Positions 2,953-34,305 of a DNA stretch of 64,000 bases are shown here, piece after piece; position 1 is the first letter of the stretch, and each line of letters opens with the position of its first letter. The DNA lies in assembly GCA_036273715.1 (NCBI GenBank), contig DASUHB010000028.1:124001-188000 (forward strand), given 5' to 3'. The translations under genes and the position numbers were made by a program. A model generated the notes under the pieces. It had not been told where the DNA came from, searched no databases, and worked only from the letters and a program-made list of their open reading frames with translations. Source of the DNA: Gemmatimonadaceae bacterium. Its GTDB lineage: Bacteria > Gemmatimonadota > Gemmatimonadetes > Gemmatimonadales > Gemmatimonadaceae.

Positions 2953-3762
2953 TCAGTCGGCGCGCTCGATGACTAACGGACCGTTGGTCGTCACGGCGCG
3001 GACCGTCGGACCGCCGGACCCGAGGTCGGTCTCGAGGTGGCGCAGGATCTGTCCCTGAACCGTAATAGGGATCCCGATCGACATCGGCCCGTTCGACGTC
3101 CCCGTCTCGAGATGCGCCGAGTACGCGTCGGGAATGCTGATGGTCGCCGGACCGTTGGTCGTCTCCGCATCGAGCCCCCGTCCAACCCACGTTTTGCCGG
3201 TGAGACGCACCGAGAGCGGCCCATTCGTCGTGCGGCCGTGCACGTCGCCGCCCGCGTCGTCGATGTCCAACGGTCCGTTCACCGCGCTCAGCTCGATCTT
3301 GCCGTGCACCGACTGGATCGCCACCGGTCCGTTGGTCGCGGTGAGGGAGAGGTCGGACGCGCGCGGCACCAGCACGTCGAACGACACCGACCAGGACGCG
3401 CCATCGTGCGTGCGCGGCCCGTTGGCGTGGATGTGGCCGTTCGACATGTCGATCGAGATCTGCTTGGCCATCGCCTGCGCCTCATCGTCGCTGCGCGCCT
3501 GCGTTTGGATGTGCGCGATGACGTCGATGCTGTCGCGATCCCAACCGGCCACGCGCGCTCCGCCGTTCTCTCCGCCATCCACGGTGATCGTCCCGCCGGA
3601 CGCATGCGCGCCCATCGTGCGCTCCTCGCAATAGCGGGGACGGTCCGTGTCCGCCTCGCGGCAGCGCTCGAGCCAGTTACGCTCGTGGTGCTGGGCATGG
3701 ACGGCGGGCGCCGCCCACACGAACGCGATCATCGCGGCAACAGCAGACAGGCAGCGACGCAT
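2953..3762 (-). CDS. secreted DUF4097-type repeat protein
   Basis: 269 residues with a Sec signal peptide (MRRCLSAVAAMIAFVWAA..., cleavage probably after VHA). The mature part carries at least six evenly spaced (T/S/V)NGP repeats, such as TATNGPVAI, AVNGPLDI and TSNGPMSI, each followed by a short beta strand, as in the DUF4097/putative adhesin beta-helix family. Role unknown; probably periplasmic or surface. The ATG is chosen because it begins the signal peptide and has CCGGAGGC 4 bases upstream. The frame continues open into the permease gene, but that extension is only a shadow reading. Confidence 0.85.
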   Translation of the reverse strand: MRRCLSAVAAMIAFVWAAPAVHAQHHERNWLERCREADTDRPRYCEERTMGAHASGGTITVDGGENGGARVAGWDRDSIDVIAHIQTQARSDDEAQAMAKQISIDMSNGHIHANGPRTHDGASWSVSFDVLVPRASDLSLTATNGPVAIQSVHGKIELSAVNGPLDIDDAGGDVHGRTTNGPLSVRLTGKTWVGRGLDAETTNGPATISIPDAYSAHLETGTSNGPMSIGIPITVQGQILRHLETDLGSGGPTVRAVTTNGPLVIERAD

Positions 3763-29929: not shown

Positions 29930-29958
29930 TTGACGCTTTACTTGAGGCCCGGTAAGTT
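29930..29958 (+). promoter_or_regulatory. sigma70-type promoter of the peptide transporter operon
   Basis: TTGACG (29930-29935), 17 bases, TAAGTT (29953-29958). Predicted start near 29965, giving a leader of about 29 bases before the proposed CTG start. Confidence 0.6.
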
Positions 29959-29993
29959 CACTCGTTTCACACTCGAAGTCAACGAGGCGCCGT

Positions 29994-31631
29994 CTGCGCA
30001 CGATTCGCTTCTCCCTCGCGGTTCTTCTCGCCGTCGCTTCAGTTTCGCTCGTGTGCGCCTGCCGTGGCGCCGGCTCCACTCCGCAACGCAAAACGTTCAT
30101 CGACTCGCGCGATCGCTACGATCCGCGCTCCCTCGATCCCGCCCTCTCTACCGACGTGCCAACCGGGCGCGCCGTCTCGTACCTGTTCGACGGCCTCACC
30201 CAGTTCACCGTCGACGCACACCTCGCTCCCGCCCTCGCCGCACGCTGGGACCTCTCACCCGACGGCCGCACCTACACCTTCCACCTGCGGCCGCACACCA
30301 CGTTTCACGACGGACGCACTCTCCTGGCACGAGACGTCGTGCACAGCTTCGAGCGCGTCCTCGATCCGCGCACGAAAGGCGGTCGAGGCTGGCCGCTCTA
30401 CCCGATCTCCGGCGCACGCGCGTTCGCCGCGGGCAGCACGTCCACCATCAGCGGCCTCTCCGCTCCCGACGACAGCACCATCCGCATCACACTCGACACG
30501 GCCCTCGCGATCTTCCCAAAGTTACTCGCGATGCCCGTCGCGTCCATCGTACCGGACAGCGACACGGCGAATTTCGCGGAGCATCCCGTCGGCACAGGAC
30601 CGTGGCGCTTCGTCCAGTGGAAGCACGACGACTACGTCCTGCTCGCGAAGAATCCGTCGTACTGGGGCGGCGCCCCTCGCATCGACTCGCTCGAGATCCG
30701 CATCGTGCCGGAACCCAGCACGGCGGTGGCGGAGTTCCAGGCCGGCAACGTCGACCTCCTCTACGTCCCCGAGGCGGAGACCGAACGCTGGGAGCATACG
30801 GACGAGAAGAGCGCGTTTCTCGTGTCGGCGCCCGCGCTGCGCCTCTGGTACGTCGCCATCAATTGCACCCGCGGTCCGCTCAAGGATCCTCGCGTTAGGC
30901 AAGCGCTCAACTATGCCGTCGATGTGCGCACCATGCTGCAGCGCCTCGTCGGCGGACGCGGCACCCTCGCCGCCGGCGTCATCCCGCCGTCGCTCGACGG
31001 CGCCGACACCGCGAGACGACCCTATGGATACGACCCCGCAAAAGCCCGCGCCCTGCTCGCCGCCGCGGGCTACGCGAAGGGATTCGCCGTCCAACTGTGG
31101 GTTGGGCAGGACGAGACGTTTCAGCGAATCGCGCAATCCATCCAGGCGTATCTGGCCGCCGTCGGCGTCCGGGTCGCGCTCGTCCAACGCGACAATTCCG
31201 CGGCCCGCGAAGCGTCGCGCCACGGCGACGCCGACCTCTTCATCAAAGATTGGTACGCCGACTACCCGGACGCCGAGGACTTTCTCGACCCGCTGCTCGT
31301 CGGCGCGAACAAGGGCGTCGGCGGCAACGTGTCGTTCTACGAGAATCCAACCGTCGACCAACTCGTCTCGCGCGCCCGCACCACGGCCGACAATGCCAAG
31401 CGCGCCGCGCTCTATCAGCGCGCGGACTCCGTTGCCTTCGGCGACGCGCCGATGATCTATCTCTTCTTTTACAACGAGCTGTACGCGGTGCAACCGTGGA
31501 TCCGCGGATTCAAGGCGCCCGCCATCTTCAACGGCCAACGGTTTCTCGATGTCTCGATCGTCGGCCCCGGCGAAATCGCGAGCCCAACCCGCGACAGCGT
31601 CGCGCGCGACACCACCGCGCCGCATCGCTGA
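29994..31631 (+). CDS. peptide ABC transporter substrate-binding lipoprotein (probable CTG start)
   Basis: About 545 residues of the SBP_bac_5 family (GRAVSYLFDGLTQF, HPVGTGPWRFVQW, LALWVGQ-type lobes), binding oligopeptides or similar ligands outside the membrane. The first ATG/GTG/TTG in frame, a GTG at 30051, would remove the export signal. The frame upstream encodes RTIRFSLAVLLAVASV followed by SLVCAC, a clear lipoprotein signal. The only start with a fitting Shine-Dalgarno is CTG at 29994 (GAGG at 29984-29987, 6 bases before). ATT at 30003 is an alternative. Next gene: a DppB-type permease. Confidence 0.8.
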   Translation: MRTIRFSLAVLLAVASVSLVCACRGAGSTPQRKTFIDSRDRYDPRSLDPALSTDVPTGRAVSYLFDGLTQFTVDAHLAPALAARWDLSPDGRTYTFHLRPHTTFHDGRTLLARDVVHSFERVLDPRTKGGRGWPLYPISGARAFAAGSTSTISGLSAPDDSTIRITLDTALAIFPKLLAMPVASIVPDSDTANFAEHPVGTGPWRFVQWKHDDYVLLAKNPSYWGGAPRIDSLEIRIVPEPSTAVAEFQAGNVDLLYVPEAETERWEHTDEKSAFLVSAPALRLWYVAINCTRGPLKDPRVRQALNYAVDVRTMLQRLVGGRGTLAAGVIPPSLDGADTARRPYGYDPAKARALLAAAGYAKGFAVQLWVGQDETFQRIAQSIQAYLAAVGVRVALVQRDNSAAREASRHGDADLFIKDWYADYPDAEDFLDPLLVGANKGVGGNVSFYENPTVDQLVSRARTTADNAKRAALYQRADSVAFGDAPMIYLFFYNELYAVQPWIRGFKAPAIFNGQRFLDVSIVGPGEIASPTRDSVARDTTAPHR

Positions 31632-31661: not shown

Positions 31662-32585
31662 GTGGGCACCTTCCTGCTGCGCCGCCTGCTGCTCGCGATT
31701 CCGACGCTGGCCGGCGTCCTCGTGGTCGTGTTCGCGCTGCTCTACATTGCGCCCGGCGATCCGGTGATGGAAATGGTCGGCGAGCGCGCTGATTCCGCCA
31801 CCATTGCCCAACTGCGCCGCCAGCTCCACCTCGACGAGCCGCGCCCCAAACAATTCGCCGCCTACGCGACCGGCGTGCTTCGCGGCGACCTCGGCACGTC
31901 GTTCATCACGGGACGTCCGATCGCCCGCGACATCGCCGAACGCTTCCCCAAGACCTTGGAGCTGGCGTGCGCGGCAATGCTTCTCGCCGTCGTGTTAGGC
32001 ATCTCCGTGGGCGTCCTCACCGCCGCCTACCCCGGCGGCTGGCTCGATCGCCTCACGCTCGCCTTCACCTATCTTGGGATTTCTTTCCCCGTCTACTGGG
32101 TGGGGCTGATCCTCATCCTCGTGTTCGCGATGATCCTCCGCTGGCTCCCGCCGTCCGGCACCGGCGGGCTCGCGTTCCTCGTCCTCCCGGCCTTTGCGTT
32201 AGGCACGCGCTCGATCGCCTTCCAGGCCCGCATGACGCGCTCGTCGATGCTCGAAGTCCTCGGCAGCGACTACATCCGCACCGCCCGCGCAAAAGGCCTT
32301 CCGCGCCTCGCCGTGCTCGGCCGACACGCGCTGCGCAATGCGCTCATCCCCGTCGTCACGGTGATCGGCCTCGACTTCGGTTCCTACCTCACCGGCAGCA
32401 TCCTCACCGAAACCGTCTTCAGCTGGCCCGGACTCGGCCGCTACGTGGTCAACGCGATCGGCAAACGCGATCTGCCCGCCATTCAAGGAAGCATCCTGTT
32501 CCTCAGCGTCGTGTTCGTCATTGTGAACATCATCGCCGACGGCGCGTACGCCGCCGTGGATCCCCGCGTGGAATTCGGCCGGTGA
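31662..32585 (+). CDS. peptide ABC transporter permease, DppB/OppB type
   Basis: 307 residues, six membrane helices. N-terminal motif RRLLLAIPTLAGVLVVVFAL and APGDPV typical of DppB, and the inner-membrane permease loop (EVLGSDYIRTARAKGLPRL) that contacts the ATPase. GTG start. The second permease and both ATPase genes that normally follow are absent: directly after this gene lies the opposite-strand hipA, whose 3' end overlaps it by 56 bases. The transporter may be completed from elsewhere or be broken. Confidence 0.88.
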   Translation: MGTFLLRRLLLAIPTLAGVLVVVFALLYIAPGDPVMEMVGERADSATIAQLRRQLHLDEPRPKQFAAYATGVLRGDLGTSFITGRPIARDIAERFPKTLELACAAMLLAVVLGISVGVLTAAYPGGWLDRLTLAFTYLGISFPVYWVGLILILVFAMILRWLPPSGTGGLAFLVLPAFALGTRSIAFQARMTRSSMLEVLGSDYIRTARAKGLPRLAVLGRHALRNALIPVVTVIGLDFGSYLTGSILTETVFSWPGLGRYVVNAIGKRDLPAIQGSILFLSVVFVIVNIIADGAYAAVDPRVEFGR

Positions 32586-33834
32586 CGGACGTACCCTTCG
32601 ACACCAAGCGCCACAACGGTAAGCCCTGCGCGTGTTGCGCGATCGTCGATCGATGGCGGGACGGCAGGCCCCTTACGGCGGGGTCGTCGCGCCACGCCTC
32701 TTGAAAGCTCCGAACCGTTTGTTCAACGGTTTGCTCGACCGCGGCCGTCGGGAGCCCGACCTTGGCGGCGAGCCTCCTAAACGAATCCATCGTCACGGAA
32801 TGCATCTGCGACTGCCCGCTCAGTGCCAACGCGAGATCTGCGTTAGGCAGGAATGCTATCGTGCCAACGAGATCGTACGCCGGCGCCAAGCGTGCGGCGG
32901 TGCGCTCCGCGTAGCGCACCGACCAGTTCTTGAGATGCATGTCGGCGTTTCCGGTCAAGACGGTGAACACGAGCCGGCGCACGAACTCCAGACTGTCGTC
33001 GAGGCCTGACTCGGCCCATATGACCCGCGCGATGTCCTCGCTGCTCGCCGTTCCGTACTTTCGCTCGGGATAGACATTGAACACCTGCGCGAAATCCTCG
33101 ATGTGCACGCGAGCGCCGTCCGGAGCGCGATCAAAACGCTTGACCCCCAGCGCGTGACCATCCAGCGGCCCAAGATCGCGTGGAAGACCATCGATCGCGC
33201 TGAGCGGTAGCAGCTTGTTCTCCGGAACACTGATACCCACCGCTCTCGCAAGTCCAAGCATCGCGTGCTCGTGCTCGGGTACCGATTGAAAGCGCGTCGA
33301 TGGAAGCTTGACGATCCAGTCGCCGCCCGCGCCCGAGACGGGAATCGTCAGACCTCCGCCTGTCTTGGCAAGTGCCGAGAATTTGAGTTGCACACCCGCC
33401 AGTGAAAACCGAAGAGGAGTCTGGGCCGCGCCGTTAGGCGACTGCGACGGCCCGTCTGATGAGTCGACAGTCCACCTGTCGGATGTCGCGCGAAGGTCGA
33501 TCGCTCCCGGCAGATCCCGGCCGAGCAGACCGATGAGGGGAAACTCGCGAATGGGTTTCACCCCGCCACGAGCCGCCAGATACTGCCGAAGGTGCCCTTC
33601 TGGCAGGAGATTCGAAAAGAATGGGGGTAGCCGAACACGAGTGCGGGCCGGTGTGCGCAAAGCGCCCGACGCCGTCTTGAGACTCAGACTCAGTGTCGCC
33701 CGGCCCACATCGTTCTCGTAGTCGAGATCGAACGCCGTTACGATCTGCTCACCTGGCAGCTGTGCGAGCACGCCAATGGGCGCGCCGTAGAGCAACATGC
33801 GCAAGGACGAGATCTGCGGGGCATCGCCCCTCAC
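32530..33834 (-). CDS. hipA: HipA-family Ser/Thr kinase toxin
   Basis: 434 residues: HipA N-terminal domain (about 10-110), a serine loop (FSLAGVQLKFSA), HipA_C kinase core with the catalytic motif GNADMHLKN near residue 300 and the metal motif APAYDLVGT. HipA kinases arrest growth by phosphorylating glutamyl-tRNA synthetase or similar targets. GTG start overlapping the hipB stop as GTGA. The last 18 or so residues (Arg-rich) are antisense to the permease gene, so the natural C-terminus seems to have been lost where the island joins the transporter operon. Confidence 0.88.
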   Translation of the reverse strand: MRGDAPQISSLRMLLYGAPIGVLAQLPGEQIVTAFDLDYENDVGRATLSLSLKTASGALRTPARTRVRLPPFFSNLLPEGHLRQYLAARGGVKPIREFPLIGLLGRDLPGAIDLRATSDRWTVDSSDGPSQSPNGAAQTPLRFSLAGVQLKFSALAKTGGGLTIPVSGAGGDWIVKLPSTRFQSVPEHEHAMLGLARAVGISVPENKLLPLSAIDGLPRDLGPLDGHALGVKRFDRAPDGARVHIEDFAQVFNVYPERKYGTASSEDIARVIWAESGLDDSLEFVRRLVFTVLTGNADMHLKNWSVRYAERTAARLAPAYDLVGTIAFLPNADLALALSGQSQMHSVTMDSFRRLAAKVGLPTAAVEQTVEQTVRSFQEAWRDDPAVRGLPSRHRSTIAQHAQGLPLWRLVSKGTSVTGRIPRGDPRRRTRRRR

Positions 33835-34157
33835 GACACCTCGTCCTCCCGCTCTGGCGCATACAGCGGCACCTCGTCCTGCGGCTCCGCGCTGCCACTT
33901 TTCGGCGGCCGCAGTAAAATGTCGATCGCGGGAACCATTTGCCTGGGCACAAGACGCAGCTCCAGGCCTAACGCGTGAGCGATTTCGAGCACGGTGCTGA
34001 GGCTCGGATCAGCGATCCCGCGCTCGATGCGGGAGAGTGCGGCCTGCGTTGCACCCGCCATCCTCGCCACGCGTTGCTGAGAGAGTCGACTTGCTTTGCG
34101 CTTCGCGGCGAGGCCGGCCGTCAACGCCCGGAAGTCGATACTTCCGCGGATCGGCAT
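33831..34157 (-). CDS. hipB: HipB-type antitoxin, XRE-family repressor
   Basis: 108 residues. Helix-turn-helix of the XRE/Cro type at about 25-75 (SQQRVARMAGATQAALSRIE) with a C-terminal tail likely to contact HipA. It precedes and overlaps hipA, the standard order for this toxin-antitoxin type. AT-rich inverted repeats directly upstream of its start are the probable operators for autorepression. The base composition upstream (about 35% GC by eye) differs sharply from the rest of the window, a sign of transfer. Confidence 0.87.
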   Translation of the reverse strand: MPIRGSIDFRALTAGLAAKRKASRLSQQRVARMAGATQAALSRIERGIADPSLSTVLEIAHALGLELRLVPRQMVPAIDILLRPPKSGSAEPQDEVPLYAPEREDEVS

Positions 34158-34160
34158 GGG

Positions 34161-34212
34161 ATATAGTGTATGCTATATGTGTAGCTGACATCCATAAAGC
34201 ATAATATATAGC
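34161..34212. promoter_or_regulatory. hipBA operator/promoter region
   Basis: A perfect inverted repeat ATATAG-N6-CTATAT (34161-34178) starts 4 bases upstream of the hipB start codon. A second AT-rich dyad-like element (GCATAATATATAGC, 34199-34212) lies 20 bases further. Two such sites match the autoregulated arrangement of hipBA loci. Confidence 0.6.
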
Positions 34213-34235
34213 ATTGCCGGGCGGCGCCAGCCGAA

Positions 34236-34286
34236 TGATATTGTTGTAGGTATAGGTGACGTATCTATATATCTTCAACAATATCA
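34236..34286. repeat. 11-bp perfect inverted repeat at the edge of the hipBA island
   Basis: TGATATTGTTG (34236-34246) and CAACAATATCA (34276-34286) with a 29-base AT-rich loop. It lies between the hipBA control region and the end of the ferredoxin-NADP reductase gene. It could be a hairpin, a regulator site or the end of a former mobile unit. No matching copy is seen at the other end of the island near 32586. Confidence 0.6.
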
Positions 34287-34305
34287 CCAGTGCTCCCCAC
34301 GCACT

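Follow-up and report, generated by a model that had tools for sequence, protein, structure and literature searches.

The closest described relatives of the gene analyzed here are the family-5 substrate-binding proteins DppA, OppA, NikA and GsiB (PF00496). It resembles them in its domain, in a lipobox that follows the signal and in the permease gene directly downstream, and it differs from them in that its NCBIfam matches lie below cut-off, its start is almost certainly not ATG, GTG or TTG, and no dppC or ATPase gene directly follows. CTG starts are rare in bacteria but known, E. coli infC uses an ATT start, and standard gene finders miss starts outside ATG, GTG and TTG. Non-canonical starts in Deinococcus deserti were reportedly described by Baudet et al. 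in 2010; like the start considered here they lie outside ATG/GTG/TTG, but the present one is conserved in four species and is deduced from comparison only. We regard the probable CTG start of the binding-protein gene as a new conserved case and not as a new kind of start, and among the titles that a literature search of partial coverage gave, none hinted at this gene or at the use of CTG as a start codon by Gemmatimonadota.

The window (the whole 64,000-nucleotide stretch analyzed, from a Gemmatimonadaceae bacterium) carries a family-5 (peptide/nickel type) substrate-binding lipoprotein gene at 29994..31631 on the plus strand. Its product matches PF00496 (SBP_bac_5) over residues 77-440, with an E value of 8.2e-99 and 331.6 bits against a cut-off of 32.4; the best NCBIfam matches are DppA and GsiB, and all 11 NCBIfam matches fall far under their cut-offs. 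As an earlier note on this DNA had stated, the reading frame extends upstream without a stop as far as 29946, just after TGA 29943-29945, and this open stretch translates as GPVSSLVSHSKSTRRR-L-RTIRFSLAVLLAVASVSLV-CAC-RGAGSTP. The earliest in-frame ATG, GTG or TTG is the GTG at 30051..30053 (plus strand), which gene finders limited to those three codons would choose. It lies only three codons 5′ of the lipobox cysteine codon (30060..30062, plus strand), so a start there yields no signal peptide; the GTG form leaves M-C-A before the cysteine. A hydrophobic signal and a lipobox appear only when translation begins 5′ of this GTG, and the best 11-residue mean hydropathy is 2.75 when the protein begins at CTG, compared with 0.19 at the N-terminus of the GTG version. 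The earlier note was thus right that the export signal lies upstream of the first canonical start, and its expectation that annotation restricted to ATG/GTG/TTG would cut the signal off is supported.

The CTG at 29994..29996 (plus strand), the most likely start codon, is the sole in-frame CTG between the upstream stop and the GTG. From it runs a predicted 22-residue lipoprotein signal peptide, MRTIRFSLAVLLAVASVSLVCA (29994..30059, plus strand), with a hydrophobic core and an n-region net charge of +2 over the first six residues. The lipobox reads VCAC here and VSAC in the three nearest species, and relatives have VSA-C, LGA-C or LAA-C at this position; signal peptide and lipobox were judged by hydropathy and pattern only.

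The comparison draws on a search of 60 genomes, including that of the window, 32 of which gave a match with an E value of at most 1e-60, and on a scan of named genomes that gave 65 loci. Most of the latter are titled as metagenome assemblies from Gemmatimonadota or Gemmatimonadaceae; among those titled otherwise are L051 (Roseisolibacter sp.), L067, L075 and L084. Merging seven duplicates gave 88 distinct loci, and dropping the truncated L084 and L098 left 86 readable N-termini; this count leaves out G056 and G052 (matches without a locus) and the own-genome paralogues L002-L005. A canonical start at least 13 codons before the lipobox cysteine is present in 81 of the 86, 77 of them with ATG and four with only GTG or TTG. 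None of the 86 begins at the GTG without a signal, an arrangement that the earlier note had named as fatal to its proposal. The five that have no canonical start before the lipobox are four species with the CTG, all of one uncultured Gemmatimonadaceae genus, and L034 (G057), which belongs to another family of the same order. In L034, known from a single assembly, ATC is the best in-frame candidate by eye and reads IRHPPLLPVLLLLAAC.

All six genus genomes examined, each a separate draft or metagenome assembly, have an orthologue match. Five of them also occur under second locus numbers, the two copies being identical over 2200 compared bases (L035=L006, L036=L007, L049=L008, L037=L009, L038=L010). 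In four of the six (L001, the window's own, with L006, L007 and L008) the CTG, the GAGG that precedes it and the first ten codons agree in every base. These four species have no ATG, GTG or TTG from the upstream stop to codon 19, and none has a canonical start at least 13 codons 5′ of the lipobox cysteine. The first ten codons from the CTG are identical even at synonymous sites, and no other identical run among the first 300 codons is as long (the second longest has 7). In the rest of the gene, unchanged 10-codon windows make up 30.3% vs the close L035, 0.8% vs L036 and 0.2% vs L049. Five other CTG codons lie at indices 11-299, and not one of them is retained by all three relatives; of 28 Leu codons, 10 are identical across the four species. 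The four CTG species form one clade (tree support 100/99; 100/100 for five species including L009) and so represent one evolutionary event, not four. In the fifth species (L037/L009) the sequence is GAGGC-ATG-ACC-CTG, with an ATG one base after GAGG and two codons 5′ of the CTG in the same frame, and in the sixth genome (L010) the ATG is elsewhere. The upstream alignment that the earlier note had proposed as a check has therefore turned up what it hoped for, a CTG conserved in four species and GAGG, CTG and ATG side by side in L037.

The strongest single result comes from L008/L049, where GTA replaces GTG 30051. There, the first ATG, GTG or TTG after the CTG is at codon index 115, inside the PF00496 match, which starts at residue 77. 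The dN/dS ratio over the mature part of the gene is 0.072 vs L035 and 0.090 vs L036, and it is 0.116 vs L049 over codons 23-299; by this measure the binding-protein genes are under strong purifying selection and functional. Since its first canonical codon lies so far inside a gene under such selection, L008 must use a non-canonical start, and on the sequence evidence it is close to certain that the binding-protein gene of the window does so as well.

The Shine-Dalgarno-like GAGG lies at 29984..29987 (plus strand), with a spacer of 6 to the CTG in all four CTG species and of 7 in L037. It directly follows GTCAAC in L001, L035, L036, L049 and L037 and is not there in six other aligned loci; in L040 a GAGG is found elsewhere in the leader. 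A 16S-tail motif with the anti-Shine-Dalgarno sequence CCTCCT occurs at four places in the genome, and PMC10783764 lists an anti-Shine-Dalgarno sequence with CCUCC for the class Gemmatimonadetes. By chance alone, one of the 4-mers GAGG, GGAG, AGGA or AAGG stands 4-10 nt before 43 of 871 plus-strand and 79 of 1020 minus-strand CTGs, i.e., before 122 of the 1891 CTGs in the window (~6%). Only five of the 77 ATG-starting orthologues have such a 4-mer at a spacer of 4-10, which is about background, and because this gene family rarely uses a Shine-Dalgarno sequence the argument that it offers for the CTG is modest. We also looked for other CTG-start candidates among 44 gene calls in the window (42 of 47 crude calls plus two added; those at 3134, 16101, 21059, 21887 and 41309 were dropped as doubtful). 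At least 15 open codons lie ahead of the first canonical start in 21 of the 44; the calls contain 13 in-frame CTGs before the first canonical start, and only that at 29994 has a Shine-Dalgarno 4-mer. Taking these comparisons together, we put the probability that translation starts at CTG 29994 at about 0.77, in agreement with the earlier note, which did not mention the second candidate discussed next.

That candidate is the ATT at 30003..30005 (plus strand), conserved in the same four species. A start there would give MRFSLAVLLAVASVSLVCA-C, with a 19-residue signal, and would make the CTG part of the leader; we consider this unlikely, although several observations speak for it. Like the start of E. 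coli infC it is a non-canonical ATT, and it lies three codons 3′ of the CTG. Signal lengths in the family fit it better, since the signal is 14-20 residues long in 53 of the 77 orthologues that start with ATG (in 24 it has at least 21), a range that includes its 19 residues and excludes the 22 of the CTG form. That Shine-Dalgarno sequences are uncommon in the family is also in its favor. A reporter selection in mycobacteria enriched ATT (9.8%) among leadered starts but did not enrich CTG (0.03%; PMC4633059). PMC11497404 cites AUG, GUG and UUG usage of 82, 14 and 4% and describes E. coli initiation complexes as less stable on CUG than on these three codons; from this lower stability and the lack of enrichment in the mycobacterial selection, CUG is counted as a poor start codon. 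Against the ATT, and unlike the described ATT starts, no Shine-Dalgarno-like 4-mer stands at a workable distance, GAGG being 15 nt off, and the sister species L037 has no ATT at that place but does have both GAGG and CTG, its ATG lying two codons 5′ of the CTG. The CTG thus remains the preferred start.

Upstream of the leader lies a promoter-like element, TTGACG-N17-TAAGTT, at 29930..29958 on the plus strand (TTGACG 29930-29935, TAAGTT 29953-29958). The earlier note called it a good promoter. The element does exist, and a looser form of the pattern is present at 44 of the 86 orthologous loci, the 14 closest included, with no match at the other 42; measured against the E. coli consensus, however, "good" is generous, as the -10 hexamer matches at only 3/6 positions and a stricter E. 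coli-type scan (at least 4/6 per hexamer and at least 9/12 overall) reports no promoter here. The GTCAAC at 29978..29983 is a TTGAC box on the minus strand and, judging from its position, may be the -35 for a response-regulator gene transcribed in the opposite direction, along with the genes that follow it; in all 44 pattern-positive loci a GTCAA occurs 3′ of the -10-like box, at a distance of 19 or 20 nt and in one case of 23 nt. The complete inverted layout, TTGAC-N17/18-TAnnnT-N19..23-GTCAA (29930-29983), stands between divergent genes in 44 of 86 loci and is possibly a conserved bidirectional promoter; the genes behind the response-regulator gene appear by eye to be BamA-like and TamB-like. 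We read the upstream conserved stretch as promoter and leader, so its conservation does not speak for coding, and regulatory DNA that belongs to the divergent promoter could account for some of the invariance around the CTG.

This reading of the stretch bears on a third set of possibilities, namely initiation out of frame with a later frameshift, a near-cognate ACG at 29982 or 30000, or a second upstream promoter. The frame is open to a point 5′ of the -10-like box, which would leave room for such a route, but it has no canonical start there, and promoter and leader suffice to explain the stretch. Neither ACG is well placed, that at 29982 having no Shine-Dalgarno 4-mer at useful spacing and that at 30000 having GAGG 12 nt away, and we consider all of these routes very improbable.

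A start at the GTG, with a protein that is not exported or a gene that is decaying, has in its favor that this codon is the first in-frame ATG, GTG or TTG and is also found in L035 and L036. It is already refuted for L008, which lacks the codon, and we reject it: a protein begun at the GTG lacks a hydrophobic segment close to its N-terminus, 81 of 86 orthologues start upstream of a lipobox, and dN/dS values of 0.07-0.12 speak against decay. A read or assembly error that hides a real ATG, which the earlier note had feared and which draft and metagenome assemblies might invite, would have to have arisen four times, since the L006, L007 and L008 assemblies, from species that differ from that of the window at 13-43% of the gene's codons, likewise show the CTG and lack an ATG at that place, and we dismiss it.

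With CTG 29994 as the start, we envisage a transcript that would begin near 29965, a ribosome that would bind GAGG 29984-29987 and initiate with fMet-tRNA at the CUG, and a product that would begin with the 22-residue signal followed by cysteine, to be processed by Lgt and Lsp at Cys 30060; GTG 30051 would be an internal valine codon. The predicted product is the peptide-type binding protein of an ABC importer similar to Dpp and Opp, exported and held by a lipid anchor, the kind of substrate being suggested by family membership.

The leader folds no better than shuffled sequences (z 0.40 and 0.57), and mRNA structure as a special signal was rejected on that ground. In the predicted fold of all four CTG species the first two bases of the CUG are unpaired and the G is paired, and a small GCGC-loop-GCGC hairpin is predicted in all four, with those first two bases in its loop. 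A hairpin over the ATG of L037, suggested by eye, was discarded when the computed fold differed. One might speculate, with little confidence, that the clade fixed a CUG start in a tuned context (a Shine-Dalgarno sequence in a family poor in them, the GCGC hairpin and invariant first codons) that sets a low or regulated rate of binding-protein synthesis, and that other genes of these genomes use CTG as well. The CUG might be used in L037 too, since the ATG there is only one base after GAGG.

The locus offers a clean comparative case, in that in at least one species the intact protein cannot be made from ATG, GTG or TTG. Annotation restricted to those codons would lose the export signal and make the lipoprotein look cytosolic. 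The genus also provides a natural series (ATG; ATG beside CTG; CTG alone) in which to study the fixation of a weak start codon and to ask whether a stronger ribosome-binding site compensates for it.

A DppB/GsiC-type permease gene (PF00528 and PF19300) lies at 31662..32585 on the plus strand, probably in the same transcription unit as the binding-protein gene, which it follows in all nine relatives checked. Within the window no dppC or ATPase gene stands directly after it, and the genes of the importer may be dispersed in the genome. The same contig has an OppC_N-type permease gene at a distance of ~62 kb (C28:91841-91984, L104), next to a gene that is acyltransferase-like by eye; a second is on C50, and a third match, on C69, is below cut-off.

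Beyond the permease gene is a hipB-hipA pair, both on the minus strand (HTH 33831-34157, HipA 32530-33834), and the HipA reading frame overruns the 3′ end of the permease gene. The pair lies mostly in a stretch of ~1.7 kb (window 32604-34294) that is represented by only ~39 bases in the 97% identical L035, and the pair was not seen at that place in L049; by this comparison the stretch looks like a recent insertion. Finally, L075 (CALQGY020000037.1), a contig titled "Candidatus Kuenenia stuttgartiensis," has a 61% identical copy of an orthologue that elsewhere occurs mostly in Gemmatimonadota, and the contig is probably mislabelled or from a mixed bin.
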